The notes under the pieces are model-generated. The model was not told the origin of the DNA, did no database searches, and worked only from the letters and a program-made list of their open reading frames with translations. From positions 1 to 38,845 of the IMG/VR virus record IMGVR_UViG_3300038309_000147: DNA of 38,845 bases, one strand, 5' to 3'. This DNA is from a virus. Below, one piece after another: positions 3,838 through 37,118 of this stretch (its first letter is position 1; the number at the start of each line of letters is the position of its first letter). Both the position numbers and the translations under genes were made by a program.

Positions 3838-5685
3838 TTATGCTCCTAAAATTTCTAATTTTTTATTTATATCTATTAATTGTAAATAAATATCATCTAT
3901 AATTTCACTATACTCATTATCGAGTTGATAAATAGCTCCTTCCACAAACCCAAGTTGTTTCCCGATACTAACCCCCATCCTCTGTTTTATAAAAGCCTTA
4001 TCAATGATAACTTCCGTATGGGTTTTGCCGGTATACGGGTTGAGTTTCCCACCCTTGATTTTTTTCGTAATCGAGGGTATCCTATCTTCGATAATATTTA
4101 ATATCTCTACTTCTGTTATATCAATTTTGTATTCTTCCTTAAGCTCATCCGGCAACTCTTTAAGATTTGTAATAGCCCTCGGTTGTGTCAAAACATCAAC
4201 AACCCTATTCCCGTACTTGTCAGTCCCAAATGTGGTTAATTTTTTATGTTTGTGAATTTCTTCAAGATCGTCTACGATATCAATATCATACCCATATACA
4301 TAATATAGACTATAGAATTTACCATAATTAAAATACCAAGACCCTGTCCCAACTGCCCCTGAATTATTGACAAGTGGTAAAAAATAATTTCCGCTAACGT
4401 CCCCATCGTTATTTACACCAAACACCCCACTATCCCCTGAATCATAACAAGCTATAGAATACGCTGTATTATCAGATGTACCCCCTTTAATCTTTACCCT
4501 TATAGTTGAATCATAAGCCGCGCCACCGTATAACCCGTATGCTGAATTATGGTAAACAAAAGCTGAAGTCTGTGCATATATTACCGAAAATCTATTCCCA
4601 GTGCCACCCCCCAATGAATATGTGTCGGTGGTGCCGACTTGAATATTCCCTGATATTACTCCTCCTGCGAAATAAGCAGCCCCCCACGGATACGAAGCGT
4701 GCCCTAACGCCGGTGCCGTTGCCGTCCCGTTTGGGTTCGCTCTAAAATAATCTTGTGTATATGTATAGTGTATCCCATTATTCGACCCCGTATACGCTAA
4801 CACATATGCAGCACCACCACTATTATCTGCTTCAAACCCGTAATGAGTACCCGATAAACTACCAGAAATTAAATCCCCAGAATAAGTCGGTCTTATATTA
4901 ATATAACGTGTGTAACTGCCATCCCCTATCTGAATCCCTGAACCTGCTGTCCTCCCAGCTATATAAAGATACGTGCCAGACGAAAGGCTTCTAATGTCGT
5001 ATGTGTATCCGCTCCTTGTAAATTGTATCATAGATGTGGTATCAGAAGTTGATTGAAGAATCAAATCTGCGCCATCAACAAATGTCATCGAGGAAGAACC
5101 ACTGAAAGTAACTGTTCCAGCATTTAAACCAACCAGCCTATTTAAATATATTGAATTCGTTGCAATATAATCAGCATCTATTAATGTTCCCCCAGATTTT
5201 CTCCAAGCGTTAACAACTGATAAATCATAAGCCGCCAACGCATCTAAAGCTGACAAATTAGCCGGGTTGACTTGTGCGTTTTCTTCAATTGTATCCAATT
5301 TCGAACTTGCACTTGAATCAAGTGCAGCCAATCCATCACCACTATTTATGGTGTTTATTTCTGCATATGGAACCCAATCATTAGAATTATATACTCCTGT
5401 TAAACGCCCAACTTGGCATCGATATAATGCTTCCGTCTTGACCCAAAGATCTCCAACCTTATATGGAGTTGTCGGTGTAAGTACAAAAATAGTTCTATCT
5501 GAAGTATCATCTGCTTTCAGTCCAGCTGTGGTAATGAGCCCAATATCAATTAAATCCTGACGTGTCATTAACTGTGAGTTGGTAACACCACCCAGAACAT
5601 CAATACGCTTTTTTACCTCAAGTAAAAAAGTTGCCAATCCAGCTTGAATACCTTGAGGCACAGGTCCTAATTTAAAATCACTCAT
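3838..5685 (-). CDS. Tail fibre / receptor-binding protein
   Basis: 615 residues. The N-terminal 170 residues look like an attachment region with an intervening-strand segment (YKVGDLWVKTEALYRC) often seen in fibre N-termini. Residues 170-480 are Gly/Ser/Thr/Tyr-rich beta repeats typical of fibres (LGHASYPWGAAYF; GTGSWYFNYGKFYSLYY). The C-terminal 130 residues change to charged, helical sequence (DDLEEIHKHKKLTTFG, then DNEYSEIIDDIYLQLIDINK), resembling the terminal coiled coil of intramolecular chaperone-bearing fibres. The usual S74 catalytic Ser-Asp motif is not clearly visible, so I do not assign that peptidase. It overlaps the nozzle-like gene by 8 bp (ATGAGTGA), so the two are translated together. 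It likely determines host range. Confidence 0.82.
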   Translation of the reverse strand: MSDFKLGPVPQGIQAGLATFLLEVKKRIDVLGGVTNSQLMTRQDLIDIGLITTAGLKADDTSDRTIFVLTPTTPYKVGDLWVKTEALYRCQVGRLTGVYNSNDWVPYAEINTINSGDGLAALDSSASSKLDTIEENAQVNPANLSALDALAAYDLSVVNAWRKSGGTLIDADYIATNSIYLNRLVGLNAGTVTFSGSSSMTFVDGADLILQSTSDTTSMIQFTRSGYTYDIRSLSSGTYLYIAGRTAGSGIQIGDGSYTRYINIRPTYSGDLISGSLSGTHYGFEADNSGGAAYVLAYTGSNNGIHYTYTQDYFRANPNGTATAPALGHASYPWGAAYFAGGVISGNIQVGTTDTYSLGGGTGNRFSVIYAQTSAFVYHNSAYGLYGGAAYDSTIRVKIKGGTSDNTAYSIACYDSGDSGVFGVNNDGDVSGNYFLPLVNNSGAVGTGSWYFNYGKFYSLYYVYGYDIDIVDDLEEIHKHKKLTTFGTDKYGNRVVDVLTQPRAITNLKELPDELKEEYKIDITEVEILNIIEDRIPSITKKIKGGKLNPYTGKTHTEVIIDKAFIKQRMGVSIGKQLGFVEGAIYQLDNEYSEIIDDIYLQLIDINKKLEILGA

Positions 5686-7684
5686 TCAACGCCCTTATAC
5701 TAGTAGCAAGTTCAATAGAATCAACAGGCACATATCCTTCAAGAAGAAACTGTACGCGCCTACTTTTATATTTTCCTTTTAATTTAAATGGATTATTATG
5801 GTTTATTGTTCTTGTTGCGATCGCATTATCTTCATCGCCATTTATAAAAATGGAAAGTGTCACATCTTTTGATAATGTAATACCGGTGGTTGCTGTGAGT
5901 CCATCTCCATTCAATTCATATAAATTTATTTCATTATCATTTAATAGTCCTAATATTTCCTCACTACCTCCCCATTCTCCTGTATAATCGTCTCCCCACT
6001 CGGCTGTATATCTATCACCCCATGCACCAACATAATTAAGGAGATCCTCATTGTCTTCAATCACGGAAGCATCTTCAGCCATTATATCAAGGATACGATT
6101 GTAATACGTTTCGTCGATAGTTAATCGAGCAGCAACAATTGTTTCCTTACGTCCCATATCAAACCACTTTGAACGCCATGTATATTTTCGATGACTATAT
6201 GGTTTTCCTTCCCATTCTTTTATTAAATAACCTGTATCGCCATCGACAACCATATATAACTTGTTACCTTCAGGTGGCACATATGCTGCATACACAATAT
6301 CACTGAGTGTCGTATAGTCTCCCCTTTTAAAATTAATAAGAAATGATTTGCCTGACATTACATTAAACCCAAAATACTGACCATGAAGCATATACCCATG
6401 TATATTTTCTGGAAATAAATCATCCCAATCACGTTTTGTAAGGATTTCTTCTGTTGCAATTATTGTACCATCCAGGCTTGTACGCGCAAGTCCATGAGTT
6501 GTAGCGTATAAGCACCCACTTTTACCGGATACAATTGACCGTTTTGAAATGCATGGATGTTTATCACCTGATCCTATCTCTGACATATTGTCAGGATGTG
6601 TTCCCGCATAAAAAATAGGGCTACCCTTTGTGAATGCAATCGTTACTCCTCCATAATGCCCAAGACCAACAATTTCATATTCTGTCGTTAATTCTTTAGC
6701 AGGCCATGCGTGCGGATGATTAGGAATACTAAATATAATATTTTTTCCATAAAACCCGGCTAACATACCTCCGTTAACACCAATTATTCCATTAAGTTCA
6801 TTTGGTGCCGGGAGATATTCTTCAGATGGGCAAATTATCCCTGCACTCAACATCTCATATGTAGTAACGTCATCGACTATTTTATAATATTCCCATCTTG
6901 GCGAAGAACCATTTATTCCATATGTTGTATCGTCCGGATCATCCCCACAACTGTCATACAAACATTTATACAAAATATTGCCATTATCATTATCATACGA
7001 TACGACATCCCCATTATCTGCTGTAGACGATCCGCTTTCCCATACAGCTATTTCCGGGAGATCATAATCTTTAACATAATAATATTCAGATGGATTATAA
7101 GAACCAGTTGCAGTCCGATACAACCTCAACTGTGTAATTGCATGCCCAAGCTCAGGGGCTTCTATTTTAGATATAAATACTTCACTATCATTTTTGAAAG
7201 GATTTTCTGGATATGCTGTAATAGGCGAAGGTGCCCCTTCTTCACCATATCGTGACACAAATGTAAATGAATAACTCCGCTCTTCTTCTGTACCTGATCC
7301 AGACATTTTTTCTATAACATCCGGTTGAATGGAAGGTTGCTGCGGTCCTGGTTCGTAATATTCCGGATATTCCAAATCGTTTGCAAGAGCACGGAAAGAC
7401 CCCTCTCCGGTATAATATTTGCGATCATACAAGTCATTTGCCAGTGGAGAATCAACAAAATCCACAAACGCCTCTTTTGTAATGAACTCATTATTATATT
7501 TATTCAGAGTCAATGCTGAATTGACATCAAGAACCTTAGTTAATGATGCTTCAAAAAATGAACGCAAATCACCTTCTTCAAAATTGCAATTTTCTGCAAC
7601 AACAGCACTTTCTGCTGTTAGCAGATTATCGGTAGTGCCTGGAGTTGCCCCCCTGAATGTGCGAATGTTTATCTTCAATCCCAA
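5678..7684 (-). CDS. Tail nozzle-like / tail hub protein
   Basis: 668 residues, mostly beta. The N-terminus (FRGATPGTTDNLLTAESAVV, then AENCNFEEGDLRSF) matches the start typical of podovirus tail-nozzle and stabilisation proteins (T7 gp12/P22 gp10 type), where a short segment precedes a beta-propeller. A central region with repeated aromatic blades follows (PNHPHAWPAKE, ATTHGLARTSLDGT, GYMLHGQYFGFNV), then a C-terminal beta domain. Three WGDRYTAEWGDDYTGEWG-like W-G-[DE]-Y repeats lie near residue 560. It lies between the signal-peptide fibre and the tail fibre and overlaps both. Function is assigned by length, N-terminal pattern and gene order. Confidence 0.72.
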   Translation of the reverse strand: MGLKINIRTFRGATPGTTDNLLTAESAVVAENCNFEEGDLRSFFEASLTKVLDVNSALTLNKYNNEFITKEAFVDFVDSPLANDLYDRKYYTGEGSFRALANDLEYPEYYEPGPQQPSIQPDVIEKMSGSGTEEERSYSFTFVSRYGEEGAPSPITAYPENPFKNDSEVFISKIEAPELGHAITQLRLYRTATGSYNPSEYYYVKDYDLPEIAVWESGSSTADNGDVVSYDNDNGNILYKCLYDSCGDDPDDTTYGINGSSPRWEYYKIVDDVTTYEMLSAGIICPSEEYLPAPNELNGIIGVNGGMLAGFYGKNIIFSIPNHPHAWPAKELTTEYEIVGLGHYGGVTIAFTKGSPIFYAGTHPDNMSEIGSGDKHPCISKRSIVSGKSGCLYATTHGLARTSLDGTIIATEEILTKRDWDDLFPENIHGYMLHGQYFGFNVMSGKSFLINFKRGDYTTLSDIVYAAYVPPEGNKLYMVVDGDTGYLIKEWEGKPYSHRKYTWRSKWFDMGRKETIVAARLTIDETYYNRILDIMAEDASVIEDNEDLLNYVGAWGDRYTAEWGDDYTGEWGGSEEILGLLNDNEINLYELNGDGLTATTGITLSKDVTLSIFINGDEDNAIATRTINHNNPFKLKGKYKSRRVQFLLEGYVPVDSIELATSIRALNE

Positions 7685-8655: not shown

Positions 8656-9321
8656 TTAAAACATTGTGCTTCCACTGTATCCGGCAACCATAGAAACGTT
8701 TCCATTACCCTGGCGAGAAAGACCTTTTGCATCAGCCTTAAACTTCTCATATTTAATTTCCTGATTTGCAGCTTCTTTGAGATTCGTCCAAATTTTTCCG
8801 GTCTGCCCAAGTATTTCGGAAAGAACTCCCGCCCGTATCGCCTGACGGTGATCATTATAAATAAGATCATCAACCTCTGTAGCATCACTTTTTGGCATAA
8901 CGGCCACTTTTAGCAAAAGTGTGTCTGTAAGATCATCATCCGGAATCGGATAGACCCTGATATCGCCATCCATTGTAAGAAACACATGAGTAAAATCTTC
9001 GGAAGTGGTCTGCCTTTTCCAGTATGGTCCTGTCTGATCCAGGTACCATTGAGAAGTAATTTCAATTGGCGTATCGTCGTCTGTACCATCCCCCAGAAGT
9101 GCATGAATGATTTTCAGTACCTTATACGATCCACTGGAAAACACTGGCGTGTATTCTGCTGTGTCTTCCAGAATCGATATAGCAGAGGCATCCAATTCCA
9201 AAATCAGCGTATCCCTGCAAAAATCAATCAGCGTTTCAACAATCTGATCATCAATGACCGCATTCGGGCACTGGTGACAATATGGCTTTATAAATGTTCG
9301 AAATGTTGAAATAGCAGTCAT
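8656..9321 (-). CDS. Head-tail adaptor-like protein (second of two)
   Basis: 221 residues. An N-terminal helix (FRTFIKPYCHQCPNAVIDDQ, VETLIDFCRDTLI) is followed by beta strands and a helical end (DHRQAIRAGVLSEILGQTGK...NQEIKYEKFKADAKGL). This helix-beta-helix pattern and the A-x-x-A-G-x-L-x-x-I-L segment are those of podovirus tail-tubular/adaptor proteins, which dock under the portal. It overlaps the preceding adaptor-like gene by 4 bp and precedes the fibre gene by 9 bp. Assignment rests on fold pattern and gene order. Confidence 0.65.
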   Translation of the reverse strand: MTAISTFRTFIKPYCHQCPNAVIDDQIVETLIDFCRDTLILELDASAISILEDTAEYTPVFSSGSYKVLKIIHALLGDGTDDDTPIEITSQWYLDQTGPYWKRQTTSEDFTHVFLTMDGDIRVYPIPDDDLTDTLLLKVAVMPKSDATEVDDLIYNDHRQAIRAGVLSEILGQTGKIWTNLKEAANQEIKYEKFKADAKGLSRQGNGNVSMVAGYSGSTMF

Positions 9322-10004
9322 CGCCTTGCCCCCTGCGTCATTGTATATTTCGCTTTGAATTCAATACCAAGATCCTTATAAAATTCTTCCTCGTAAAATG
9401 CAGCCTCCCCCATGGAAGACTCATCCCCCTCAACCAGCTTCGCACATCGTTTCATCCATAACCCGAGAGCGTCAATAAACTGATTGCCAGCATCGATATC
9501 CTCAGTTGTATAATTAAGAGTAGTAATATCTTCGGTAAAAGCATATGAATACACACCTTCAACATAAACGGCTGTTGATGCATGTACTCTCGGATATGTC
9601 CAAATCGTCCTGGGCATTTTTGAATCCAGGCTGAAAAACTCAATTGCTGTCACACCTGTATCTGAGTGCCAGGTGCTTATCATCGCTTCGATATCGTCCC
9701 TTGGGACCTCAATAATTGGTGTCCCAGGCGTCAAACCGTCCGAACCCATGTTGCGGGTTATTTCGATCATGGCAATTGCTTCTGTTGGAGCATCATGACG
9801 CACCATGTTAGCAGTCAATTGCCATGATGTGTGTTTATAATTAGAATCCGGCCTTACCTTTACGAGTTGCCGCTGTGCCTGGTGATAAAAATCTATCCAG
9901 TCCTGTAATTCGGTATGGATGAACTGATCCGCATAAGTCGCTCCGTCAACATCGTAATCTTGGGTGTCCTTTGCACAGCGTATAATCAATTCAGATACTT
10001 TCAT
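9318..10004 (-). CDS. Head-tail adaptor-like protein (first of two)
   Basis: 228 residues. It starts MKVSELIIRCAKDTQDYD, followed by an L-x-D-W-I-D-x-x-x-x-A-Q-R-x-L-V segment (LQDWIDFYHQAQRQLVKVRP). This is the N-terminal pattern of phage adaptor proteins of the DUF6682 type, in which a helical bundle binds the portal ring. The C-terminal half has a long helix pair with conserved-looking DALGLWMKRCAKLVEG. It starts 26 bp after the 198-residue gene. The family name is from memory of the pattern, so treat it as likely rather than certain. Confidence 0.65.
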   Translation of the reverse strand: MKVSELIIRCAKDTQDYDVDGATYADQFIHTELQDWIDFYHQAQRQLVKVRPDSNYKHTSWQLTANMVRHDAPTEAIAMIEITRNMGSDGLTPGTPIIEVPRDDIEAMISTWHSDTGVTAIEFFSLDSKMPRTIWTYPRVHASTAVYVEGVYSYAFTEDITTLNYTTEDIDAGNQFIDALGLWMKRCAKLVEGDESSMGEAAFYEEEFYKDLGIEFKAKYTMTQGARR

Positions 10005-11209: not shown

Positions 11210-12124
11210 TTATTTTTTGATGTATGCTGTTACAAGGGCTTCTTCTTTGAGAACCTTGTAATCATATACCATCAGACCTCTTACAATACGTGCAAAGGTC
11301 TTCTCAGATTCGACGGAACTCATTTCCCGCATCTGAGCTGCGAAGGTGATCGCATCGATGTGACCGGCCATTGGGTAATAACAATAGTCGCTCCCATCGA
11401 GAACCCTCTTGATCTGATTGGATTTGTGAAGATCTGTATTGTCGATCCGTCCTATACGCCCATGGCGAACCACGGAAGATGAATCACCGGTCATGCTGAC
11501 ATCTTTCAAATCGCTTTTTTTCATGCGGTTTATCAGCCATGTAGGATGGGCTTGCCATCTCTGTGATTCCGGGACGTCCTGTTCATCGAGACAGGTGTTC
11601 ATGTCTACGACAAAATCCAGAACGTTTTCCTTAGTAACCTGGACCGGAGCGCCACTCGCACCAAGGTCGAAATCGCCGGAAATCTTACCGGCTGATGCGC
11701 CTGCATTGTATGTGTCCGCATTTGCGTAAACATCTCCCAGACCCTGAGCATCGATCTTGATTTTCAGTTTTTCGCCTGCATCCTGTGACCACTCCTCCAT
11801 CAGATTGATATCCGTCTGATGTGCGTCAATGTCGTCACACGTAAAAGCGTAGTATTTCGCCTTACGGATCGGGAAGGTAATCATTGGTTTGTCCGGTTTT
11901 TGAACCGTCAAATCCATACCCTTCTCATAATCGCGGATATCGATATCGGCACGCTGTCTAATGTTGACGATATCGCCCACATTTTTGATCGCGCCTTCAT
12001 ATTTAGTATTGGCAATCCCAGGAAAAATAGAAGCCGTGTAGTACTTAACATTAAGTAGGGGCGACCAAATTTCCGGTATGAAATTGCCGCTATACTGCGG
12101 GTGTCCTGCTGCTGCTGGTACCAT
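11210..12124 (-). CDS. Major capsid protein
   Basis: 304 residues, with an optimal AAAGGAGG 6 nt before the ATG, as expected for the most abundant product. The N-terminus (AAAGHPQYSGNFIPEIWSPL) and segments such as NTKYEGAIKNVGDIVNIRQR, DVYANADTYNAG and KYYAFTCDDIDAHQTDINLM match a recurrent family of tailed-phage coat proteins that I associate with HK97-fold capsids. The C-terminal half carries the conserved W-x-x-x-P-x-W-L-I-N-R-M-K segment, and the end is a strand with VRGLMVYDYKVLKEEALVTA. It follows the scaffold gene and lacks an internal scaffold or protease region. I am confident it is the coat protein and less sure of the exact subfamily. Confidence 0.85.
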   Translation of the reverse strand: MVPAAAGHPQYSGNFIPEIWSPLLNVKYYTASIFPGIANTKYEGAIKNVGDIVNIRQRADIDIRDYEKGMDLTVQKPDKPMITFPIRKAKYYAFTCDDIDAHQTDINLMEEWSQDAGEKLKIKIDAQGLGDVYANADTYNAGASAGKISGDFDLGASGAPVQVTKENVLDFVVDMNTCLDEQDVPESQRWQAHPTWLINRMKKSDLKDVSMTGDSSSVVRHGRIGRIDNTDLHKSNQIKRVLDGSDYCYYPMAGHIDAITFAAQMREMSSVESEKTFARIVRGLMVYDYKVLKEEALVTAYIKK

Positions 12125-15272: not shown

Positions 15273-15814
15273 CTCCTAACTCCTTTCCCCCCTGGTAATT
15301 GAATATTTGTCCTTACAATCCAAAAAGTGGTTGCCACTTTGATAAATTCCCCCTGAAACCGCTTAGGAGCACTGATAAAGAAAACCAGCTCTTTATCTTT
15401 ATAGATATATGTACCTGACTGCCATATCTCATCATGCTGTGATTGCCGATGTTTTGCCACCCGGATTTTCCACATAGCCCACAACCGTTTTTCAAACTCT
15501 TCACGGGTTAACTTTTGGTCCCACTCATTGATAATATTGAGATTTGCCCCAAGCGTTTTCAGCGAATAAAGGATACAATCCCCAACAAACTTCCTTGCTT
15601 CTTTCGGAACCCGGTCATTCTGCCCGGTGGTATCGTGAAACTCATAATCATTCAGGTTGTTATAAATCGTATTCCACTGTGTCCGCTCATCTTCTTCAAT
15701 TTCACCAAATGTTCTCCTGTCCGGTCTGCTTTCCAGTTCCTGAAGCGGCACCTCCTGACCATGAATAATTATGGAGTTGTGAAATTCTTTCTCGTTAGGC
15801 TGCGCTTCTAACAT
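15269..15814 (-). CDS. Hypothetical head-module protein
   Basis: 181 residues, charged, no Cys pairs and no signal peptide. Helical segments (FGEIEEDERTQWNTIYNNLN; REEFEKRLWAMWKIRVAKHR) are followed by a beta-rich end (TYIYKDKELVFFISAPKRFQ; TFWIVRTNIQLPGG). It overlaps the portal gene's 3' end by 20 bp and is followed by the 112-residue gene with 4-bp overlap, so translation is probably coupled. Neck or head completion is possible but unproven. Confidence 0.65.
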   Translation of the reverse strand: MLEAQPNEKEFHNSIIIHGQEVPLQELESRPDRRTFGEIEEDERTQWNTIYNNLNDYEFHDTTGQNDRVPKEARKFVGDCILYSLKTLGANLNIINEWDQKLTREEFEKRLWAMWKIRVAKHRQSQHDEIWQSGTYIYKDKELVFFISAPKRFQGEFIKVATTFWIVRTNIQLPGGKGVRR

Positions 15815-17822
15815 CTGCCCCTCCCATTCTGTCGCCTGCCGGATTGGTATTTGTCCCTTTTTTGTAATTCGCTGATCCCTGCTGCTGTCTCATCGGCTGT
15901 TGCTGCTGCATTAACATCCTATTTCGGAGCTGTTCGTCTTTTGACGGAACAATATCGTCAGCGTCAAGGTCAGCACCTTGAAAAACCTTCCTAAGCAGTT
16001 CTGCAAATCCATCCTGCCCGATTGTCTGCAATACGATTGGATGAAGGGCAATCTGCAACATTTCGTTCATTCTTATTTGCCGTTGCTCCTTTGCAACCAA
16101 TGAAGCGGCGCCCTTGGCAACAACTTTGATATCACCCTTACGCATAATCGGATCAGGATCATAAAACACGAGAGTATCTCGTACCCCACGGATAGAACCC
16201 TCAATCACAGTATCGATATTGCCGATAACCTGCTTGATTGCCCTTGATGCGTTACTCATCATCATCGAGAATCCTGTAGCGGTACCCAAAGCTCCACCAC
16301 TTGCCTGCTGACCATAGCTGTATTTTGGAATACCTGTGGTATTATCTGCCCTATCAGAAAAAAACTCATAGACCTTGATCAACTGTTCAATGATCAGTTG
16401 TGGTTGAAAGAACCACATTGGTGGCCTGGTTCCATTAGCTATTTTCGACATATCAAATTGCCATATCTTCATCGGTGTAATAGTCGTAAGTTTTTCGCCT
16501 GCAGGGATAACCGACTTATCAACACCAATCTGAGGCCCGGAAGCAATACCCATATTGTTCACAAGGTTTCGTGCAGCCGCGTTACACATATCACAATCAT
16601 CTGCTATCAGTTCCGGCACACCCTTGCCCCAAAACTGACCTGGTGTCTCCCGGAAACTGGCCACATAATAATCACGTCTTCCCAAAGGATTTTCATTAAT
16701 TGCAGCTTTTATAATATATCGGCCTATCTGCCACACTTCGACTTCATACTCTGCCCAAACATCATCAACATGAATACCGTGTTCAGTGAGCCAGATCCCC
16801 TGGACTGATCCCCAAAACTGCAACGCGTCAATTGTTCCGTCCGGGTCCTGGTCAACGTTATACCTGTGTGCCAGCCGGTGGACTTCCTGCTGATTTGTTT
16901 CCCACAACCAACGACGCAATCCACCTCGCCCATACTCTTCGAGAACAAGATTAATTGCCGCCTCATCGTATTGTGGTGCTCCCCTCAGTTCGTTTAACGC
17001 CTTCCTTGTAAGCGTATGCTTTTCAAACAGGAATCCATCATCCGGTCCCGTAGCCGATGGTGACGGATAAATGTTAAACGGACTTGGCGCCCTGAATCTC
17101 ATTTTAATTTTAGATTCTATTTTAGGATTTCCGGCCTGATCCCGTGTAATTACTTTTTTCCGAAAAAATTCAGGCCCCTTAAAAATACCTGCCGGGTAAT
17201 CCACCATATTGGAGATAAAATCCTTAAATGCCTCCTTCCAGTTGGACTCAACGATTACATCTTTAATTTTGTTGTCGACTGCTGCATCATGTTTTTTGGC
17301 CGCATTTCGCATTCTCCTTACGATTTCGCCTTCGATAGCTTCAATTTTAGCCGTAACATCTTCGGGAATGGTAACAACACCCATCTGAATGTCCATTTGG
17401 GTTTCAGACATAACACTCTTCCGAATTGCCTGTTCTTCCATCGGTGTAAGTTCCGGTACTGGAGTAGGATCAACACCAAACGGCATTTGATCTGCGGGCA
17501 GCATTGTATCAATGATCCAGGCCTTTGCAGCATTGCTCTTTTCATCGGCAAGTCGCATATAAATCGAAGAACCGCCCATAGCCATTATTTTTGCCAGCTT
17601 GTCAGCTTCGTATTCGCCATTTAGCGCCCGCTTACTCTTGAGCATGATCTGTTGAACTATTTCTTTTGCTTGTTTGGCAGCCTCCCAACATGTTGTAACG
17701 TGTTGTGATAGGTAAGTGACAGCTGGTTGCAATTGCCGTTGCTGTGCTTCGGCTCTTTCTGCCTGTTGCATTTCTTCTGCGTTTAACTGATCATTATTTT
17801 TAAATGTGAGAGCCGGATTCAT
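15795..17822 (-). CDS. Portal protein
   Basis: 675 residues, in the size range of large P22-like portals. The N-terminal stretch is helical and Gln-rich (NAEEMQQAERAEAQQRQLQP). A conserved core shows MRFRAPSPFNIYPSPSATGP, RRDYYVASFRETPGQFWGKG and CNAAARNLVNNMGIASGPQI. This R-D-x-x-x-x-S-F-x-x-x-P-x-x-F-W-G-x-G-x-P-E-L pattern is typical of portals of this type. A long Gln-rich tail (MLMQQQQPMRQQQ) would form the barrel or disordered end. It lies downstream of terminase and upstream of capsid, as usual. Confidence 0.85.
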   Translation of the reverse strand: MNPALTFKNNDQLNAEEMQQAERAEAQQRQLQPAVTYLSQHVTTCWEAAKQAKEIVQQIMLKSKRALNGEYEADKLAKIMAMGGSSIYMRLADEKSNAAKAWIIDTMLPADQMPFGVDPTPVPELTPMEEQAIRKSVMSETQMDIQMGVVTIPEDVTAKIEAIEGEIVRRMRNAAKKHDAAVDNKIKDVIVESNWKEAFKDFISNMVDYPAGIFKGPEFFRKKVITRDQAGNPKIESKIKMRFRAPSPFNIYPSPSATGPDDGFLFEKHTLTRKALNELRGAPQYDEAAINLVLEEYGRGGLRRWLWETNQQEVHRLAHRYNVDQDPDGTIDALQFWGSVQGIWLTEHGIHVDDVWAEYEVEVWQIGRYIIKAAINENPLGRRDYYVASFRETPGQFWGKGVPELIADDCDMCNAAARNLVNNMGIASGPQIGVDKSVIPAGEKLTTITPMKIWQFDMSKIANGTRPPMWFFQPQLIIEQLIKVYEFFSDRADNTTGIPKYSYGQQASGGALGTATGFSMMMSNASRAIKQVIGNIDTVIEGSIRGVRDTLVFYDPDPIMRKGDIKVVAKGAASLVAKEQRQIRMNEMLQIALHPIVLQTIGQDGFAELLRKVFQGADLDADDIVPSKDEQLRNRMLMQQQQPMRQQQGSANYKKGTNTNPAGDRMGGADVRSAA

Positions 17823-17830
17823 GATCTTCC

Positions 17831-18157
17831 TTATTCAACTCCATCACTACCCGTAAGAATAACAGGAAAATTAGTAGCAAGATTTTGTCTAAAAGTATTT
17901 ACAATTTGATAATAAGAAATTAAACCGGCTTTAAAATCCGGATCAACGCTCGTTCCTATTTTTGCATTGTATTTTACCATATCGGCGCACCATGTATCCA
18001 AATAGATTTTTAACCCTCTCATGTCTTGGATACACTGAACAGCATAATGATATTCGGTATTTTTATTGTACTCCGTGGTGTATGTCGCCTCCGGTATATC
18101 ATCAGCGATACAAATACCAGCCATTAAAACAAGTGCTACTACAATCAGTTTTTTCAT
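17831..18157 (-). CDS. Small exported-looking protein of unknown function
   Basis: 108 residues. The ATG has AGGAG 8 nt upstream. The first 18 residues are a Sec signal peptide (MKKLIVVALVLMAGICIADD; likely cleavage near IA-DD; the C at 16 is not in a good lipobox). The mature part is about 90 residues, with two cysteines (residues about 42 and 57) and helical sequence (QDMRGLKIYLDTWCADMVKY; YYQIVNTFRQNLATNFP). It lies 8 bp before the portal start and 11 bp after the 592-residue gene, in the same operon. If secreted it would act at the envelope; a superinfection-exclusion role is one possibility. Confidence 0.7.
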   Translation of the reverse strand: MKKLIVVALVLMAGICIADDIPEATYTTEYNKNTEYHYAVQCIQDMRGLKIYLDTWCADMVKYNAKIGTSVDPDFKAGLISYYQIVNTFRQNLATNFPVILTGSDGVE

Positions 18158-18168
18158 TTCTTATTCTC

Positions 18169-19947
18169 CTATTGATATTCGTATATTGTTAGCTCATTAA
18201 CGACACACTCTGTGCCTGTTGCAGCCTTTAAACCAGCATCATCACCGGTTCCTAATCCCTTTATATTTTGACTGCTGTCTATTGGGGCGGCTATAATTTC
18301 AGTACCTTCTTTTAATCCCACTACCGGTGTTAACCCCCCGGCATCAATACTTGTTATATCATATGCTACATTATAACCCCTGTTTTGAGTAATGGTAAAT
18401 TCATTACTCATTAAATACGAAGCTTGAGTGTTGCTCCCATCGCATTTGGCGTATGTATCTGTAATATGAAAAACAGTATTATTTGCATCGCAAGTTTCAG
18501 TTCCTACACTTGTAAAAAATTCATACGCTTCACAATCAGTATAAAAATTATCTGTTTCAGTCGTTATTATAAAATAAACTTCTCCTTCGGTTAACGTACC
18601 AGAATCTATAACAGTATAATCAACATCAACCCCCGGCATCCAGCCCCCGTTTGAAACGGAATAATTTTTGAAATCAGCACTGCAAGCGTATCCGGTTGTT
18701 GACGCTGCGAGGTCTGAGAAGTCGGCATCTGCGAGCGTTACAACTCCTTCGCTGTCTATCGACGCGATGCGGTAAGGTTTTGCTTGGATTTCAATCTTTT
18801 TGGCAACAACAAAATCATCCCAATATATTATATCACCACTTGTATTTTCATCACCTGGAGAATGCAGATACATAACTCTTTCGGAGTCATTGTCTGTAAA
18901 AACACCTTCTAATTTTACCCAAGTATCCTGTAAAGATGTCGTATCAAGTAGAACTGAGTCCCCATCTTTAGGCCGATAATATAAATTTGCTGTTGTGACA
19001 GTGGTATTCCCGCTTGGAATATAGACCCATACAGCACAGTAATATAATTCACCGCTTGTGAGTCCACAATTTGAGCCATCTGCATAATAATAAACCATAC
19101 TATTAACATCCGACGTACTAACCATCTTCAAAGAATTTGATCCACTGTGTTTGATGCCGTCTGCTGAATCTTTGGCTACATTACATGCGCTATGCGTGTT
19201 AGATACCCCATTCATTGTTGGTATATCGCTCTCAACATCCCCATTCGTAACAAGTTCAGCCCCAACTGCCTCCCCATCAGGCACACCGCCGATTACAATG
19301 ACATCGTTGGCTGAGAAGTCGTGAAGTTTTTTCAGTGATAAGTTGTCAATATATACTACATTACCTGTACCCATTCCACTACAACCTAAAAATGCAGATG
19401 TATCTGAATAGGCTTTAAAATAGAGTGAATATACTACTTTACTTCCTGTAATTTGATCGGTTGTTTGAGTACTATTTCCGTCATATAATCTTATCCTCGG
19501 CCCTGCTGCCCCACCTGTATAATACGCACTTATTAATAACTTATATGTAGCACCTATTTCAAGATCAGAAGATAGATCCGCAGAATTTAACAAAGAAATG
19601 GAAGCACCATAAGCATTATCCACATAAGTTATCTCAAGCTCATTACCAACGTTAGCGATTGTATTATTTCCAGTAGACCCCCAAAAATATGTACCACTTG
19701 TAAATACTGCTGCGTCAGAGTCCCAGATATCATCTCCACCCGCAAAAGTCAGCTCGGCAGATGAGTTAATCTCACAAGCGTGGCTATCTCCGGTGTCAAT
19801 GCCGAAAAATGTGGTGTCGGTGTTTTGGGCGGTTAGGGTTTTTGCTGCAGAAAAGGTATCGCCATAATACAAATTACTCCTGTAATATGTGTTAAATCCT
19901 AACAGAGGTATAATAAAAATCAGTAATAGAAAAAATCTTCTAATCAT
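18169..19947 (-). CDS. Signal-peptide protein with carbohydrate-binding-like modules
   Basis: 592 residues. GAGG precedes the ATG by 9 nt, so the hydrophobic N-terminus (MIRRFFLLLIFIIPLLGFN) is real; it is either a signal peptide or an uncleaved anchor. Two regions look like jelly-roll CBM4/9-type modules. One is at about 105-210 (LSSDLEIGATYKLLISAYYT; VVYIDNLSLKK). The other is at about 225-390 and starts with the typical ELVTNGDVESD, includes IKHSGSNSLKMVS and ends IYWDDFVVAKK. Further beta sequence follows to the C-terminus. It sits between terminase and portal. A fibre-like, glycan-binding function is likely, and the location is unusual. The start overlaps the preceding stop by 4 bp. Confidence 0.72.
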   Translation of the reverse strand: MIRRFFLLLIFIIPLLGFNTYYRSNLYYGDTFSAAKTLTAQNTDTTFFGIDTGDSHACEINSSAELTFAGGDDIWDSDAAVFTSGTYFWGSTGNNTIANVGNELEITYVDNAYGASISLLNSADLSSDLEIGATYKLLISAYYTGGAAGPRIRLYDGNSTQTTDQITGSKVVYSLYFKAYSDTSAFLGCSGMGTGNVVYIDNLSLKKLHDFSANDVIVIGGVPDGEAVGAELVTNGDVESDIPTMNGVSNTHSACNVAKDSADGIKHSGSNSLKMVSTSDVNSMVYYYADGSNCGLTSGELYYCAVWVYIPSGNTTVTTANLYYRPKDGDSVLLDTTSLQDTWVKLEGVFTDNDSERVMYLHSPGDENTSGDIIYWDDFVVAKKIEIQAKPYRIASIDSEGVVTLADADFSDLAASTTGYACSADFKNYSVSNGGWMPGVDVDYTVIDSGTLTEGEVYFIITTETDNFYTDCEAYEFFTSVGTETCDANNTVFHITDTYAKCDGSNTQASYLMSNEFTITQNRGYNVAYDITSIDAGGLTPVVGLKEGTEIIAAPIDSSQNIKGLGTGDDAGLKAATGTECVVNELTIYEYQ

Positions 19948-20435
19948 TTAGCGAACCTCAAAAAAGTTGCAGTTATGACATAGGTGGCACTTGCAGTCGC
20001 CTGATTAGATACACTGAGAGTTACTGCTCCAGTAACCGGCTGTAATTTGTTTTGACTATCGGTTGCCGGAACTGTGGCAAGACTACTTGTGGCATGAATC
20101 AGGCTATCGCCATTACCGTCCAGTAGATCAATTCCATCCGCATCATTTATATCGACATCGGCCGCGTCCGGTGCCGTGGTTCCAGGATTGCATTGTACTT
20201 TGTCCAGAAACCATCCTTCAATAAAAGATGTAAGTGTCACATTATCGTTGCCGTATGTTTTATCGTCTGTACTAGTATCAGGGATAGACCCATCAGCAGA
20301 ATCACCTGTGCAAGTAAAAATAACCGTTATTACATCCGGACCATGGTGTTCTTTGGTAACAACAACCGTTCCCGCAGCTAATACCTGCTGAGATACCAAC
20401 AGTATAATAAATCCTACAAATAACATCTTTTTCAT
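19944..20435 (-). CDS. Signal-peptide beta protein
   Basis: The frame is open to 20489, but AGGAGGAGG 4-5 nt before the ATG at 20435 fixes the start, giving 163 residues. Residues 1-20 are a Sec signal peptide (MKKMLFVGFIILLVSQQVLA, cleavage near LAAG). The mature protein is beta-rich and acidic (SFIEGWFLDKVQCNPGTTAP, DINDADGIDLLDGNGDS, VTLSVSNQATASATYVITAT). The G-W-x-L-x-K-V-x-x-N-P-G and D-A-D-G-x-D-L-L-x-G pattern recalls a small beta structural protein common in phage head/tail clusters, here with a signal peptide added. It starts 16 bp after terL. Confidence 0.68.
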   Translation of the reverse strand: MKKMLFVGFIILLVSQQVLAAGTVVVTKEHHGPDVITVIFTCTGDSADGSIPDTSTDDKTYGNDNVTLTSFIEGWFLDKVQCNPGTTAPDAADVDINDADGIDLLDGNGDSLIHATSSLATVPATDSQNKLQPVTGAVTLSVSNQATASATYVITATFLRFAK

Positions 20436-20451: not shown

Positions 20452-22119
20452 CTATGTCCATGCTGAAGAATCAGCCACCTGAACCTCAAGTGCAGGTCCG
20501 GCTGCCATGCTTTCCTCTGGTGATGCTTTCCCGAATGTTTGTGCCAATGACATCAAATCATCCGGTGATCGTTCAATGTTTTCTTTGATTTCTTCTGTTG
20601 ACATTACACAAATCTTACCGTTAATTATTTCATAAGTTGGTATCATCAGCTCTTCGAGTAACAATTCTTCCGGTGGAAGCATCGCTCCCGGATCAGTCCG
20701 TAGCCATTCCCTAACCAACCATAAAAGCTGATCCCGCAAAATCCGGAAAAAGCCTATTTCTGATTGTACTGTAGGACTTGATTGAACCATTAAACCGTGA
20801 GCATTACACCCAAGGCGTCTCATATGAGGAGCTACACCATAACCAACGCCATTGGCATCAATGAAAGCCTCTTTTGCACTAAAATTATGAAAGTATCGTG
20901 ATGCTTTATCACCTGTTACCATCATATCAACGCCCTGCCAGCGTTTCGCACGTGCCAGAAATCCACCATATCTAAAATATGCAACATTTGAATCCATACC
21001 CTGACCAGCGCAATCTAAACCCATCACAGGCTGAACTCCATCAGGGCCTTTTTCGCCGAACATTGAAACGTAGGCATCCCATCTCGCTCTTGCCGCATCA
21101 ATCCACTCTGTTGAAATGAGCTGGTTGACACCTTGAGCCGGATAACGTGCGAGAGTCATGTAGGATAGAGATGGATGTGTTATTTTTCTCTCGCCTGCTG
21201 GTAAGGGCGGGTAATACTTTCCAGGGGTAGGAGTTTCGGCTATGGCGCCAACCAGGAAATCAGGTACAGTAAATAGCGCATCTTCACCGACTTTTTCTTC
21301 AGTGTTCCGTGGTTCCGACCATTTGTTGATTCGTTGGACTGTTGTTTCCCTGTCAACAGCTCCAGGAATACGATTTTCCCCTGTGACAACATTAATATGG
21401 TTAAAAGCGGTTAAAGATATGAAATGTGCTTCCCTATCTCGTTCCATCCTGTAAGGTTTTCCGGCTCTATTTCTCGGGTTGAACAGTACGAGCAGTCTTA
21501 CAATAATACCGCCTGACATGCAGCCTTCTATGCCTTTGTAGGCGAAATCAGGGACCGTATCTCCCTCATCTATGATGAAAAGCATATGGTCATAATGTTT
21601 TCCGGAAAATTTCCCTTCTTTAACTTCATCAGTACCGGTTGTAGGGACTGATAACGCTCTTATAAAATCCTTATCACTTTCAATACATTGAATGTGCATA
21701 TCAAGGATCTTATCTTTTTTGAAAAGACCACACTTTTCAGCTTTTGTTGATAGTTCGCCCCATAAAATTTTTTGGTTTTCAAACGGATGAGCAACCGTAA
21801 AAACCTGAGACCGTGGATGACATTTCTTAAACCAGATAGCTAAACTTGCGGCTGAATGAGATTTTCCGGTACCGGTAGCAGACTTGGCAACCGTAATCCT
21901 GTGATCCCGTACCGATAACATCAATTTTTTGATATCATCAGTGTACCATTCCTTCAGGATATCTTCCCCAAACCCGACCGGATCGTTTTTGTATTCCGGA
22001 TAGAGTCGTTTATCTTTTTCCTGCGCTTTGAAAAATGATACCAGATTAGCCATACCGAATTTTGATGCAAACTCGTTAGCTAAAAAACCAGCTGTCTGGA
22101 TGTCATTATTCAGTTGCAT
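20452..22119 (-). CDS. terL: Terminase large subunit (ATPase-nuclease)
   Basis: 555 residues. Walker A is SATGTGKS (about 80-87) and Walker B is LFIIDEGD (about 180-187), the latter with the catalytic acid of packaging ATPases. The nuclease half has an RNase H-like first acid at about D369 (GLDCAGQGMDSN) and a second region around D421 (FIDANGVGYG). The protein cuts concatemeric DNA and drives it into the prohead through the portal. Its start overlaps the terS stop region by 14 bp. The length and the two-domain order are normal for the family. Confidence 0.92.
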   Translation of the reverse strand: MQLNNDIQTAGFLANEFASKFGMANLVSFFKAQEKDKRLYPEYKNDPVGFGEDILKEWYTDDIKKLMLSVRDHRITVAKSATGTGKSHSAASLAIWFKKCHPRSQVFTVAHPFENQKILWGELSTKAEKCGLFKKDKILDMHIQCIESDKDFIRALSVPTTGTDEVKEGKFSGKHYDHMLFIIDEGDTVPDFAYKGIEGCMSGGIIVRLLVLFNPRNRAGKPYRMERDREAHFISLTAFNHINVVTGENRIPGAVDRETTVQRINKWSEPRNTEEKVGEDALFTVPDFLVGAIAETPTPGKYYPPLPAGERKITHPSLSYMTLARYPAQGVNQLISTEWIDAARARWDAYVSMFGEKGPDGVQPVMGLDCAGQGMDSNVAYFRYGGFLARAKRWQGVDMMVTGDKASRYFHNFSAKEAFIDANGVGYGVAPHMRRLGCNAHGLMVQSSPTVQSEIGFFRILRDQLLWLVREWLRTDPGAMLPPEELLLEELMIPTYEIINGKICVMSTEEIKENIERSPDDLMSLAQTFGKASPEESMAAGPALEVQVADSSAWT

Positions 22120-22690
22120 TTTTAAGAATTTGCTCCTTTACTGCATTTGCCAGTTCTGGTGACGCTTTTGTCAGAGCGGTAAATATTTCTTCAAATGACG
22201 GATTTTTTTGAGCATTATCTTTGGCAAACATTCCTTTGATTTTAGCCAGGGAATCAAGCGCGTATTTTTTATCGATGATCTTAATTTTCTTGGTTTCAAA
22301 ACCAAGCATATCGTATGTAATATCTACTCCGGATATGGCCGCTGCTGTATCATCATCGAGGGTATGAATGGGTAAAGGTTCCCCAGTTAGAGAATTATAC
22401 AGCTTCCGAATATCAAAAAGCGCCAACCTCTTGTATTGTTTAAGTATTTGCTCCTCAGTTATTTCATAATCGTTCTCCATTTTGATGCGTTCAGCCTGAA
22501 CCATATCCCAAATAGTCTTGTTAGAGGCCTGTTCGCGACTATTCTCGACCCAAGCGGGGGCTTTCGCTCTCGCGGTTGACTCAGCAAAGCCTGCAGCAAT
22601 GGCGCTTTGCGCTGCATTTCCCACAATACCCGTTTTGCCGTAAAAGTAGTGATGAATGAATTTTCGGTATTTTGGATCGACTTTAGCCAC
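22106..22690 (-). CDS. terS: Terminase small subunit
   Basis: 194 residues. The N-terminus has the typical small-terminase pattern: a YFYGKTGIVGNAAQSAIAAG motif, then FAESTARAKAPAWVEN, an HTH-like DNA-recognition segment. A central helical oligomerisation part and a charged C-terminal tail (FTALTKASPELANAVKEQIL) follow. This matches the Terminase_2-type arrangement. It recognises the packaging site and loads TerL. It is the first gene of the late operon, and its upstream region holds tandem repeats that could include that site. It overlaps terL by 14 bp. Confidence 0.85.
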   Translation of the reverse strand: MAKVDPKYRKFIHHYFYGKTGIVGNAAQSAIAAGFAESTARAKAPAWVENSREQASNKTIWDMVQAERIKMENDYEITEEQILKQYKRLALFDIRKLYNSLTGEPLPIHTLDDDTAAAISGVDITYDMLGFETKKIKIIDKKYALDSLAKIKGMFAKDNAQKNPSFEEIFTALTKASPELANAVKEQILKNATE

Positions 22691-22773: not shown

Positions 22774-22857
22774 GGCAGTTATCGACCATTACCAGGCAGT
22801 TATCGACCATTACCAGGCAGTTATCGACCATTACCAGGCAGTTATCGACCAATATCG
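22774..22857. repeat. 21-bp tandem repeat, four units, next to terS
   Basis: Three exact units and one diverged unit follow one another without spacers; each begins GGCAGTTATCGACC. Units start at 22774, 22795, 22816 and 22837, and the last ends differently (AATATCG). The period equals two helical turns, so proteins bound to each unit would lie on one face. The position, 84 bp upstream of terS in non-coding DNA, fits a packaging site or a regulatory or replication iteron. The sequence does not decide between them. Confidence 0.85.
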
Positions 22858-29691: not shown

Positions 29692-32220
29692 TCAATTAAC
29701 CTCTATCCCATTCCCCGTAAATTCAATTCGATGGTCAGCCATGGAAACCACTTCCGGGTTGTGACTGATATAAAAACAAGAATTAAAACCGCCAACCTCA
29801 AGGATAGATTTATACAGGCCGATGAAGGATTGCGCTTTTTCTGAATCAAGTGGTCCATCCTCTTCGTCGGCTAAAAGTGTTTCAAAATTCCGTCCGGATT
29901 TTTCTTTTGAAACGAGAGTCATTCCTAACCGGATTGCTTTCAGTATCCAGACCTTCTCTCCACCGGACAATTTCTTGAATGAAACTTCAGATCCATCGCT
30001 CCGGATCACTATGATATCAAATGTTTCTTTCCCTGTTTCGGGGTCCTGTGTAATAATTCTTACAGTAAAGCCTGGGCCAAAACTCGATGTCAGAAGGTCA
30101 TTTCCATACCCGGTAACAAGTGGTGCCACCCCATCAATTTCGAGCGCCTGCAGGCCGTTTTTTCCACACGCATTTTGAAGATAAACCCATTGTGAGGATT
30201 CTTTTGTGATCCTGTCTAAATCTGCATGGGCGGCTGAAATTTTCTTTTCGATATCAGCCTTCTCGCTCAACTTGCTTTCCAGCATTGCAATGCTTTGACC
30301 GAGAGACACAATTTTTACGTCCACAATCTCTTTTGCCTTTTGTTTTCCAGACAAGAACTTTTTTGTATCTTCGATCTGCTTGGGGGCATTTTCGTTGATA
30401 AGGGCAGATACCTCCTCAAGTCTTTTTTCAAGTTTCCGGATAGCTGCACGATGTTCGATATCTGCATTGCTGTATTCAGCTTTTTTTCGCTCAGTCTGCT
30501 GCATAAGACTGTTAATTTCGTTGTTGAGGAGAGATTCTGACCATTCTGCTCTTTCGATGTCCTTAACCTTTTCGGATAGTTTTTTGGTCAGTACAAGTTC
30601 GGTTTCGAGGGTATTGAGTTTGGCACTGGCCTTATCCCGCTGGACGTTCAGGTCTTTTGCAATATGTTCCCTGATATTTTTCTGTTCAATTTCGTTAACT
30701 TCGATTTTGCTTTTGATGAGAAAAATCTTTTTTTCGTTCTCATCGCGCAAAGCCTGATATTCTTTTGTTGCGACACCCAATTTAATAAAATTTGTTTCGT
30801 ATGATTCCTTGTGCCTCGAAATTTGGCATTGAATTTCATTAACATCTTTCGTAATTTTTTCCACAAGCAGGCGCTTTTTTTCCTTCAGATCCGGTATCTT
30901 TTTTTCTGCCTGCAATGCTGATACAATGAACGAACAGGTTTCGCTCTTGCAGGATGGGTCCCTTTGATCCAGAAGTTTCATTGCATCTTTACAGGCTTTA
31001 ATTTCAGAATTGATACCCATAACCTCAAAAGAGACTTCAGTTTCTTCCTGCTTCCTGGTCAATTCATCAATCTTATCCTGTGCTGCTGCCATTTCATTGC
31101 GGATATTATCAACTTTTTCATCGAGTTCTTTCAGTTTGATATCATTAACCAGTTCCATGAGTTCAGATCGGAGTTCCTGGACAGTCTCACCTTTTTGACG
31201 GTCGTCTGTGTATAGAGCTTCGATGGTCCTGCACAACTCTTCATAATTCTTACGGGTATCAGCAATATCTTTTTCAAGGTCCTTGACTTTTTTAGATGCA
31301 TTAAGGACAGCATCCTTTTCTTTTAAAACGTTTTCCAGTTCATGTAGAGACTTCATTTTCTCTGTGATCGCTCTTTGTATCTCACCGAGGTCATCAAAAT
31401 GACCGTCGAACCGGTCAAGATGTTCCCTTGTTTTTGCGTCGATTTCCTGCTGAATTTCGTCCCTTCTTTCTATGTTTATTTTGTTTGTCGCCTGAGCTTC
31501 CTCAAGTTCCTTAATCCTGGTTTGGTAGAGTTCTATCTCAGCTGTTATTTTATTAAGTTCAGTTGTAAATACTTCGCGCTGGTTTTCCTGGTCAGCGATT
31601 TTGTTTTCGATATCACTAAATTTCTCCAGTTGCTCCTTGAGTGATTTTATATTTTGCTCAGACTGACGAGTCATACCACCCAGGGACACAACACACTGTT
31701 TAGCTGATGATTCATATGCTGCCAGACGGTCAAGCCTCAAAAATTCAACGAACAGCTCTTTAAGCTGGCCAGTCCTCATATCTGAAAGTTTGGTTGCATT
31801 CTGAGCACAAAAAACAGAATTATAAAATAGGTTGGATGATCCCAAAAGTTTCGTTATATAGTCGTCGTATGCAGTTATTTTTCCGTTAACCTGGGACTCT
31901 CCATTTTTCCAGATAAACCCCTCTGTTCGGTCAGATTCAGCGTCTACCTTGACAAGAGTTTTATATGAATTCCCTTCATATTCAAATTCGAGATCTTTAA
32001 AACTATCTCGCAAAAAAACATGATTCCGAAGCGCACCTGGACGACTTGGAAGGATTCTGTATGGAGATAGCAATTCCATGCAAGAGCTTTTCCCCGCGCC
32101 ATTCCTACCAGTGAGGGCGATAAGCCCTGATAGTCCAGCAAAGTCTATGTTTATTTCATCAACGCCCATCCCCTTTTTAAACCCAATAAAACCTTTTGCG
32201 TTTAGCCTATTTATTTTCAT
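29692..32220 (-). CDS. sbcC: SbcC/Rad50-like SMC ATPase
   Basis: 842 residues from the ATG 32220, which has GGAGG 8 nt upstream (this SD overlaps the end of the HNH gene); E. coli SbcC is 1048. Walker A is TGRNGAGKSS (about 37-46). The signature is LSGGEKVWIL, the Walker B and D-loop are LLADEEDGPLD, and the H-loop is FYISHNPE. Between them lies a long coiled coil (residues about 190-690) with a central hook region DPSCKSETCSFIVSALQ, a C-x4-C instead of the usual C-x2-C. It pairs with the SbcD-like nuclease to process DNA ends in recombination. The central coil is rich in Lys/Glu. Confidence 0.9.
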   Translation of the reverse strand: MKINRLNAKGFIGFKKGMGVDEINIDFAGLSGLIALTGRNGAGKSSCMELLSPYRILPSRPGALRNHVFLRDSFKDLEFEYEGNSYKTLVKVDAESDRTEGFIWKNGESQVNGKITAYDDYITKLLGSSNLFYNSVFCAQNATKLSDMRTGQLKELFVEFLRLDRLAAYESSAKQCVVSLGGMTRQSEQNIKSLKEQLEKFSDIENKIADQENQREVFTTELNKITAEIELYQTRIKELEEAQATNKINIERRDEIQQEIDAKTREHLDRFDGHFDDLGEIQRAITEKMKSLHELENVLKEKDAVLNASKKVKDLEKDIADTRKNYEELCRTIEALYTDDRQKGETVQELRSELMELVNDIKLKELDEKVDNIRNEMAAAQDKIDELTRKQEETEVSFEVMGINSEIKACKDAMKLLDQRDPSCKSETCSFIVSALQAEKKIPDLKEKKRLLVEKITKDVNEIQCQISRHKESYETNFIKLGVATKEYQALRDENEKKIFLIKSKIEVNEIEQKNIREHIAKDLNVQRDKASAKLNTLETELVLTKKLSEKVKDIERAEWSESLLNNEINSLMQQTERKKAEYSNADIEHRAAIRKLEKRLEEVSALINENAPKQIEDTKKFLSGKQKAKEIVDVKIVSLGQSIAMLESKLSEKADIEKKISAAHADLDRITKESSQWVYLQNACGKNGLQALEIDGVAPLVTGYGNDLLTSSFGPGFTVRIITQDPETGKETFDIIVIRSDGSEVSFKKLSGGEKVWILKAIRLGMTLVSKEKSGRNFETLLADEEDGPLDSEKAQSFIGLYKSILEVGGFNSCFYISHNPEVVSMADHRIEFTGNGIEVN

Positions 32221-32224
32221 ACAT

Positions 32225-32872
32225 TTACCTCCACATACCAAAGTATTGTTTTTCAGCTGCCTGCCTGGCTTTTGATGCTTCTTTTAATGAATCAAAAACA
32301 CCAAGATAGATCTCGTTGTAATCAACGGTGATCCTTGCCATATATTTATTGGTATGCTTATGCCATGAAACACCAGTTATTTTAGTTGTTTTTCTTTTTC
32401 GCTTATTCCTGGCCTGCACTGTTGGTGTTGCCCATCTACAATTCGATGGTTCGTAATTCCCATTAGGGTTTATTCTGTCGATAGAATGTTTTTTGCTTGG
32501 CCTCGGCCCCATATCTTCGAGAAAATTTTCAAAATTATCCCAACGGCTACAGACCCTTATACCTCTACCTCCATAAAGATGATAATGAATGTCGTTCTTA
32601 TTAGAACACCTCTTCCGCATTGCTTTCCATGGAGAATATTCTGGTTTATATGTTCCCCCATGTGTTTTAAAATTTTCTACTTCTCGCTCTTTTTTGTAGC
32701 AACCACATGACTTCGTTATTTTAGAACGAAGATTTCCACCTGTGACCACTGTTGTATTCCCGCAGTCGCATCTACATAACCATAAAACGGCACCGCTTTT
32801 TGGAGCCCTGCCGTTTTCAGAAATAACCTTAAGTCTTCCAAACCTCTGTCCTGCCAAATCAATTTTTTTCAT
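32225..32872 (-). CDS. HNH homing endonuclease with AP2 domain
   Basis: 215 residues, start supported by GGAGGG. N-terminus: a zinc-ribbon-like module (FGRLKVISENG, then LCRCDCGN and KSCGCYKK, C-x-C...C-x-C). HNH motif: SIDRINPNGNYEPSNCRWAT (about 129-148). AP2 domain: ITGVSWHKHTNKYMARITVD, IYLGVFDSLKEASKARQAAE (about 163-208), which binds DNA. It sits between the sbcD-like stop (1 bp) and the sbcC-like start (4 bp), breaking a pair normally adjacent. This is the usual mark of a free-standing homing endonuclease insertion; it would cut intron-less alleles. Confidence 0.9.
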   Translation of the reverse strand: MKKIDLAGQRFGRLKVISENGRAPKSGAVLWLCRCDCGNTTVVTGGNLRSKITKSCGCYKKEREVENFKTHGGTYKPEYSPWKAMRKRCSNKNDIHYHLYGGRGIRVCSRWDNFENFLEDMGPRPSKKHSIDRINPNGNYEPSNCRWATPTVQARNKRKRKTTKITGVSWHKHTNKYMARITVDYNEIYLGVFDSLKEASKARQAAEKQYFGMWR

Positions 32873-32873
32873 A

Positions 32874-36860: not shown

Positions 36861-37118
36861 ATGGGAAATTTAAGTTCTAAAAATAATAATCCAGCAAACA
36901 CTTTTTGTTTGTCTGGATTTTTTGCGTTTTGGCCTACCTTTATAAATATCAAACACATTAAATCATGTCTCGCGTGTTGGTATGCCTTCTTCGACTTCTT
37001 TGATTCAGATCTGGATAAATACGATGTGCGTTTAAAGGACTGGAATACTAAACCTGAAGATCACTGGAAACATTGGTGGGGAGGGGAGGACGAAAATGGT
37101 ACACAAAATACTAAATAG
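36861..37118 (+). CDS. Hypothetical accessory protein, 85 aa
   Basis: 85 residues. The N-terminal 14 are polar, then a hydrophobic, aromatic region (CLSGFFAFWPTFINI; CLACWYAFFDFFDSDLDKYD) and a Trp-rich end (HWKHWWGGEDENG). It could be membrane-associated. The SD is inside a hairpin. The end overlaps the pentapeptide-repeat gene by 23 bp. No family is recognised and the coding call is moderate. Confidence 0.5.
   Translation: MGNLSSKNNNPANTFCLSGFFAFWPTFINIKHIKSCLACWYAFFDFFDSDLDKYDVRLKDWNTKPEDHWKHWWGGEDENGTQNTK

Follow-up and report, generated by a model that had tools for sequence, protein, structure and literature searches.

Four late genes in the genome of an uncultured podovirus were found to encode proteins with N-terminal leaders of the Sec type, placed in at least two of them directly before a domain with which leaderless relatives begin. 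Three of these genes (P0001, P0002 and P0003) follow each other between the genes encoding the large subunit of the terminase and the portal protein, the fourth encodes the tail fibre P0006. We tentatively propose that the four genes encode adhesion or decoration proteins of phages in a Sec-exported form, and that these proteins fold in the periplasm and join the particle at lysis.

The window, i.e. the whole stretch of DNA analysed here, is an IMG/VR virus record of 38,845 bases. Its late genes are encoded on the minus strand in the order terS (22106-22690), terL (20452-22119; phrog_2), P0001 (19944-20435), P0002 (18169-19947), P0003 (17831-18157), portal (15795-17822; phrog_332 and SU10_portal, PF23899), major head protein (11210-12124; phrog_267), tail proteins and fibre P0006 (7675-8646); the tail proteins include an adaptor-like protein (9318-10004; phrog_399) and the product of 5678-7684 (phrog_511). 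The coordinates of the trio and the lengths of its products (163, 592 and 108 residues) are exactly those given in an earlier note on this DNA. The trio is tightly packed: terL and P0001 are 16 bp apart, P0001 and P0002 overlap by 4 bp, and the distances from P0002 to P0003 and from P0003 to the portal gene are 11 and 8 bp. A strong terminator was looked for in the interval from terS to portal but was not present; the strongest terminator-like hairpin of the region (23055-23023, minus strand; 13 pairs followed by a T run) is located upstream of terS. A perfect 21-bp tandem repeat of 3.7 copies (22774-22851), which could be a packaging or replication site, lies in the intergenic region between early and late genes. 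Elsewhere, the window encodes SbcC-like and SbcD-like proteins with a gene for an HNH endonuclease with an AP2-like end between them (29692-34085) and, on the plus strand, a pentapeptide-repeat protein (37096-37665) with a coding array of 15/30/60-bp repeats (37200-37467). A 36-bp repeat, present three times (38738-38845), reaches the end of the record and may represent an assembly end.

A set of 45 genes of the window was scored by a uniform rule, the mean Kyte-Doolittle value over 11 residues of the N-terminal core. The scores were bimodal: P0002 (3.32), P0001 (3.26), P0003 (3.12) and P0006 (2.66) had the only Sec-type N-termini, and the next-best gene reached 1.95, in agreement with the grouping of the fibre at 7675 with the trio in the earlier note. 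All four carry a net charge of +2 or +3 before the core and a plausible small-residue cleavage site, the weakest being that of P0002, and thus combine the positive n-region, the hydrophobic core and the small residues at -3 and -1 of Sec/SPI substrates. The leaders comprise residues 1-20 of P0001 (MKKMLFVGFIILLVSQQVLA; 20376-20435), approximately residues 1-17 of P0002 (19897-19947), approximately residues 1-18 of P0003 (18104-18157) and residues 1-24 of P0006 (8575-8646). A lipobox with cysteine at +1 was not seen by eye in P0001, P0002 and P0006; P0003 has C16 after A-G-I but no canonical lipobox. Wrongly assigned start codons were ruled out, since an SD-like stretch precedes the start of every leader; in the trio these are GGAGGAGGAAT-ATG, GAGGTTCGCTAA-ATG and GGAGAATAAGAA-ATG, which bears out the earlier description of hydrophobic N-termini supported by SD sequences. 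For P0006, a wrong start was also ruled out by the lack of an ATG between leader and domain. When similar rules were applied to the portal neighbourhoods of relatives, 10 of 508 genes (≥ 120 aa) were flagged, four of them encoding more than 400 aa, and only one was flagged after shuffling of the N-termini; leader genes are thus rare in the vicinity of portals. Four leader genes among 45 are, therefore, well above chance. Export of P0001, P0002, P0003 and P0006 via Sec is thus a well-supported prediction from sequence, and the earlier reading of the trio as exported proteins is likely right.

In the fibre P0006 (323 aa), the leader is followed directly by a docking domain (residues 26-122), which matched phrog_8469 (E 6.6e-24) and could be aligned with residues 4-100 of the 8jov_1 fibre (E 3.3e-14); the C-terminal region is C1q-like according to a sub-threshold Pfam match. 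PDB entry 8jov, which we take to be the tail of the Ralstonia podophage GP4, contains 18 copies of this fibre chain. The cognate tail partners are also encoded in the window: 5678-7684 matched 8jov_A (6 copies; E 9e-45) and 9318-10004 matched 8jov_2 (12 copies; E 5e-12). Since the docking domain is complete and the matching tail proteins are retained, mature P0006 should fit its own tail. The leader was absent in all homologues, seven from isolate phages and 17 from IMG/VR, and the docking domain starts at residue 1-2 in each of these 24 proteins. In an alignment with seven fibres from phage records, the homologues start within one residue of the end of the P0006 leader (..NSQA-ATQIFVNN in P0006, MAVVLTNN at the homologue start), and the predicted cleavage site SQA-A is right at the domain boundary. 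Because all homologues start about where the leader ends, the leader is an exact extension added at the N-terminus of a virion protein; P0006 departs from the usual, if not strictly defining, arrangement of a docking domain at the protein N-terminus without an export signal. According to the earlier note, homologues in purified capsids lacking the signal peptide would turn the exported proteins into virion proteins with N-terminal hydrophobic segments. Indeed, a leaderless homologue of the P0006 fibre domain is part of the solved virion structure 8jov, but the hydrophobic segment of P0006 itself is an added leader of the cleavable type and not an ancestral part of the virion protein.

P0001 appears to repeat this pattern. 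Its mature part, a beta-sandwich-like domain of 143 aa, was 37% identical over its whole length (134 aa) to the late protein AZF89954.1 of the Methanosarcina virus MetMV (tblastn E 1e-7 in the virus collection). A scan with P0001 alone gave no relative; with an alignment of the family as query, five viral loci were found, including the siphovirus-like locus L098. Like P0001, the MetMV protein and the relatives in L095-L099 are encoded beside fibre-like or tail genes; unlike P0001, the MetMV protein and most of the IMG/VR phage homologues have no leader, the exception being the L098 homologue, which has its own. When six sequences were aligned, the predicted mature start of P0001 (AGTVV, after the cleavage site VLA-A at the domain boundary) fell on the starts M-AGTII and M-PGTIT of leaderless relatives. 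The leader would, as in P0006, have been added where leaderless relatives start. In sequenced genomes the family was found in two contigs only, from MAGs labelled Candidatus Methanoperedens and Peptococcaceae. A structure model of P0001 was moderate (pLDDT 66) and gave middling matches to solved structures (best Z 5.8). Sequence searches with P0001, P0002 and P0003 against PHROGs, Pfam, NCBIfam and PDB revealed nothing above noise.

P0002 consists of its leader and beta-rich modules. Residues 71-208 share 38% identity (over 141 aa) with one module of a 1,052-aa protein which is fibre-like, has no leader and is encoded close behind a portal-like gene in locus L006, and residues 221-429 showed a weak similarity to a late-gene protein of locus L007; a tblastn search of cultured phages gave no match. 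The best cleavage position was G17, with no strong site, and the structure model (pLDDT 38) was too poor for a fold search. P0003, whose mature part has 90 aa, gave only chance-level matches by tblastn, and no relatives were found. With only partial relatives for P0002 and none for P0003, the designation as virion protein is weak for both, and P0003 is counted in by position and leader only.

The earlier note had called the place between terL and portal unusual for exported proteins, and this is borne out by relatives. A scan with a portal alignment retrieved 80 relatives, 28 of which have, upstream of the portal gene and on the same strand, an ORF of terL size that contains a Walker A motif. 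In 20 of these, no gene lies between the two, as in HMO-2011 and MQM1, where terL directly precedes portal; the other eight have one or two genes there, and a signal-peptide gene was found in none of the 28. The trio is thus an addition at the terL-portal site. The record of L005, a portal neighbour with 80% identity, starts within the portal gene and does not cover the interval. No other phage was found to carry this set of three genes, and the co-occurrence of the set in relatives, proposed earlier as a check, was not seen. A recent foreign insertion was rejected on composition, as the G+C content (37-44%) is like that of the surroundings.

Comparable runs of leader genes are present in other phages. 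In L098 (5998-12457), at least four consecutive leader genes (154, ~ 1025, ~ 265 and 593 aa; a partial fifth may be present) lie behind the tail genes in the position of tail fibres, the P0001 relative being among them. In L050 (6032-11048), three consecutive leader genes (112, 930 and about 630 aa) follow directly behind portal, and the product of the 112-aa gene matched the tail fibre PHROG 12296 (E 6e-7). Single genes were found as well: L070 encodes a leader-bearing tailspike-like protein that weakly matched a family of pre-neck appendages (E 4e-4), and in a fibre-like family (L056/L057/L125-L132), searched for with the mature part without leader, all eight members carry leaders, which have diverged. 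In this family, too, a signal peptide precedes a fibre-like late protein, and L056 and L057 have a portal related to that of the window; unlike in the window, the domain is another one and there is one gene instead of a run, which in L056 and L057 follows the capsid gene. The family has no PHROG or Pfam match and is called fibre-like by the look of its sequence and by position.

How could a fibre with a leader reach a particle? We infer export, cleavage, disulphide formation and docking after lysis from the placement of a short leader directly before modules which in other proteins extend from the initiator methionine onwards. Signal peptidase I would cut the leader, the proteins would take on their fold, and perhaps form disulphides, in the periplasm, and as soon as the inner membrane breaks at lysis they would dock onto finished particles; P0001 and P0002 may likewise end up on the outside of the particle, or attach to glycans of the host. 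Two-membrane bacteria commonly have leaders of 17-24 aa, and their Sec route ends in the periplasm; since the docking domain is also retained, we favour periplasmic folding and docking at lysis. The P22 tailspikes and the long fibres of T4 are established cases of tail appendages that join already complete particles, but we know of no tailed-phage precedent for export before assembly. A literature search, largely confined to journals without subscription, did not bring up any description of Sec leaders on fibres of tailed phages. The mature parts of P0001, P0002, P0003 and P0006 contain 2, 10, 2 and 2 cysteines, respectively. Of 21 leader proteins, 16 have an even number of cysteines, three an odd number and two none, compared to 160 even and 168 odd among the controls (415 genes). 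The even numbers are compatible with disulphides, in a small and partly related sample: with the eight-member family counted once, the ratio drops to about 10:3, and leaderless fibres also have cysteines (1-4). It may even be, although we hold this with more doubt than belief, that some tailed phages in general pass fibres or decoration proteins through Sec, with folding and disulphide formation in the periplasm and attachment only when lysis mixes the compartments.

The main rival, which we regard as rather unlikely, is that the proteins are exported adhesins that never join the virion; these would bind receptors or surface glycans, be it on the infected cell itself, on debris or on neighbouring cells, and block superinfection or useless re-adsorption, or degrade surface polymers. 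Such a role would equally fit the export implied by the leaders, the tandem beta modules of P0002 are glycan-binding in look (by eye), and both exported phage proteins that block superinfection (T5 Llp, phi80 Cor, P1 Sim) and leader-bearing hydrolases of cultured phages (Sinorhizobium PBC5 orf16, Xanthomonas PBR31 gp40) exist. However, P0006 keeps a complete virion-docking domain, which would be needless in a free decoy, and Sec reaches only the periplasm and not the outer face of a two-membrane host. Surface remodelling or exclusion as such, suggested in the earlier note, is not supported, as nothing points to either. That the leaders stay uncut as membrane anchors, with the proteins in the inner membrane or bringing membrane into the particle, is improbable: in both P0001 and P0006 the domain boundary coincides with a good cleavage site and, with the homologous fibre domain starting at residue 1-2, an anchor would sit at the docking surface, even if the hydrophobic cores may have sufficient length to cross a membrane and P0002 has no strong cleavage site. 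Genes for a holin, endolysin, spanin or integrase were not recognised in the whole window, and lysis genes may lie outside the record or be of a kind not recognised. A moron-like trio, whose exported products aid envelope disruption or have no role in the phage's own growth, would fit this lack of lysis genes and their position near terL in relatives (a phage lysozyme upstream of terL in HMO-2011, a spanin-like gene in MQM1) but is very unlikely, because enzyme or spanin features are absent, P0001 and P0002 resemble fibre-like late-gene modules of other phages and the leaders are kept across a diverged eight-member family elsewhere.

In the textbook view, the assembly of tailed phages takes place entirely in the cytoplasm. 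Leaders that sit exactly on fibre domains and recur in several unrelated lineages would, if true, mean a periplasmic step in virion assembly or, alternatively, a second, secreted life for receptor-binding proteins. Such fibres would be missed in any search for receptor-binding proteins in which proteins with signal peptides are discarded as cellular or lysis genes. The fibres of Bcep22/GP4-like podophages (phrog_8469; 8jov chain 1; BcepIL02 gp58, PBC5 orf14) have an N-terminal domain of ~ 95 aa in common with P0006 and the same neighbourhood of tail genes, with adaptor and nozzle-type counterparts in the window; only the window copy has a signal peptide, whereas 24 of 24 homologues start at the domain. 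T5 Llp, phi80/N15 Cor, P1 Sim and lambda Lom are, like the window proteins, phage-coded with signal peptides, but none of them has a virion-docking domain; they belong to the small lipoproteins, the beta-barrels or the periplasmic proteins. Lambda Lom is also covered in PMC12309495. Gp40 of the Xanthomonas phage PBR31 is a signal-peptide SGNH hydrolase encoded in the lysis region and proposed to help lysis (PMC10975493), and orf16 of the Sinorhizobium phage PBC5 (L109, 5664-6713) encodes an SGNH/GDSL hydrolase with a signal peptide close to a tail fibre gene. Both are enzymes, whereas the window proteins show no hydrolase domain; what they have in common with the latter is a leader, carried by a protein which is similar to tail-associated hydrolases or is encoded near a fibre.
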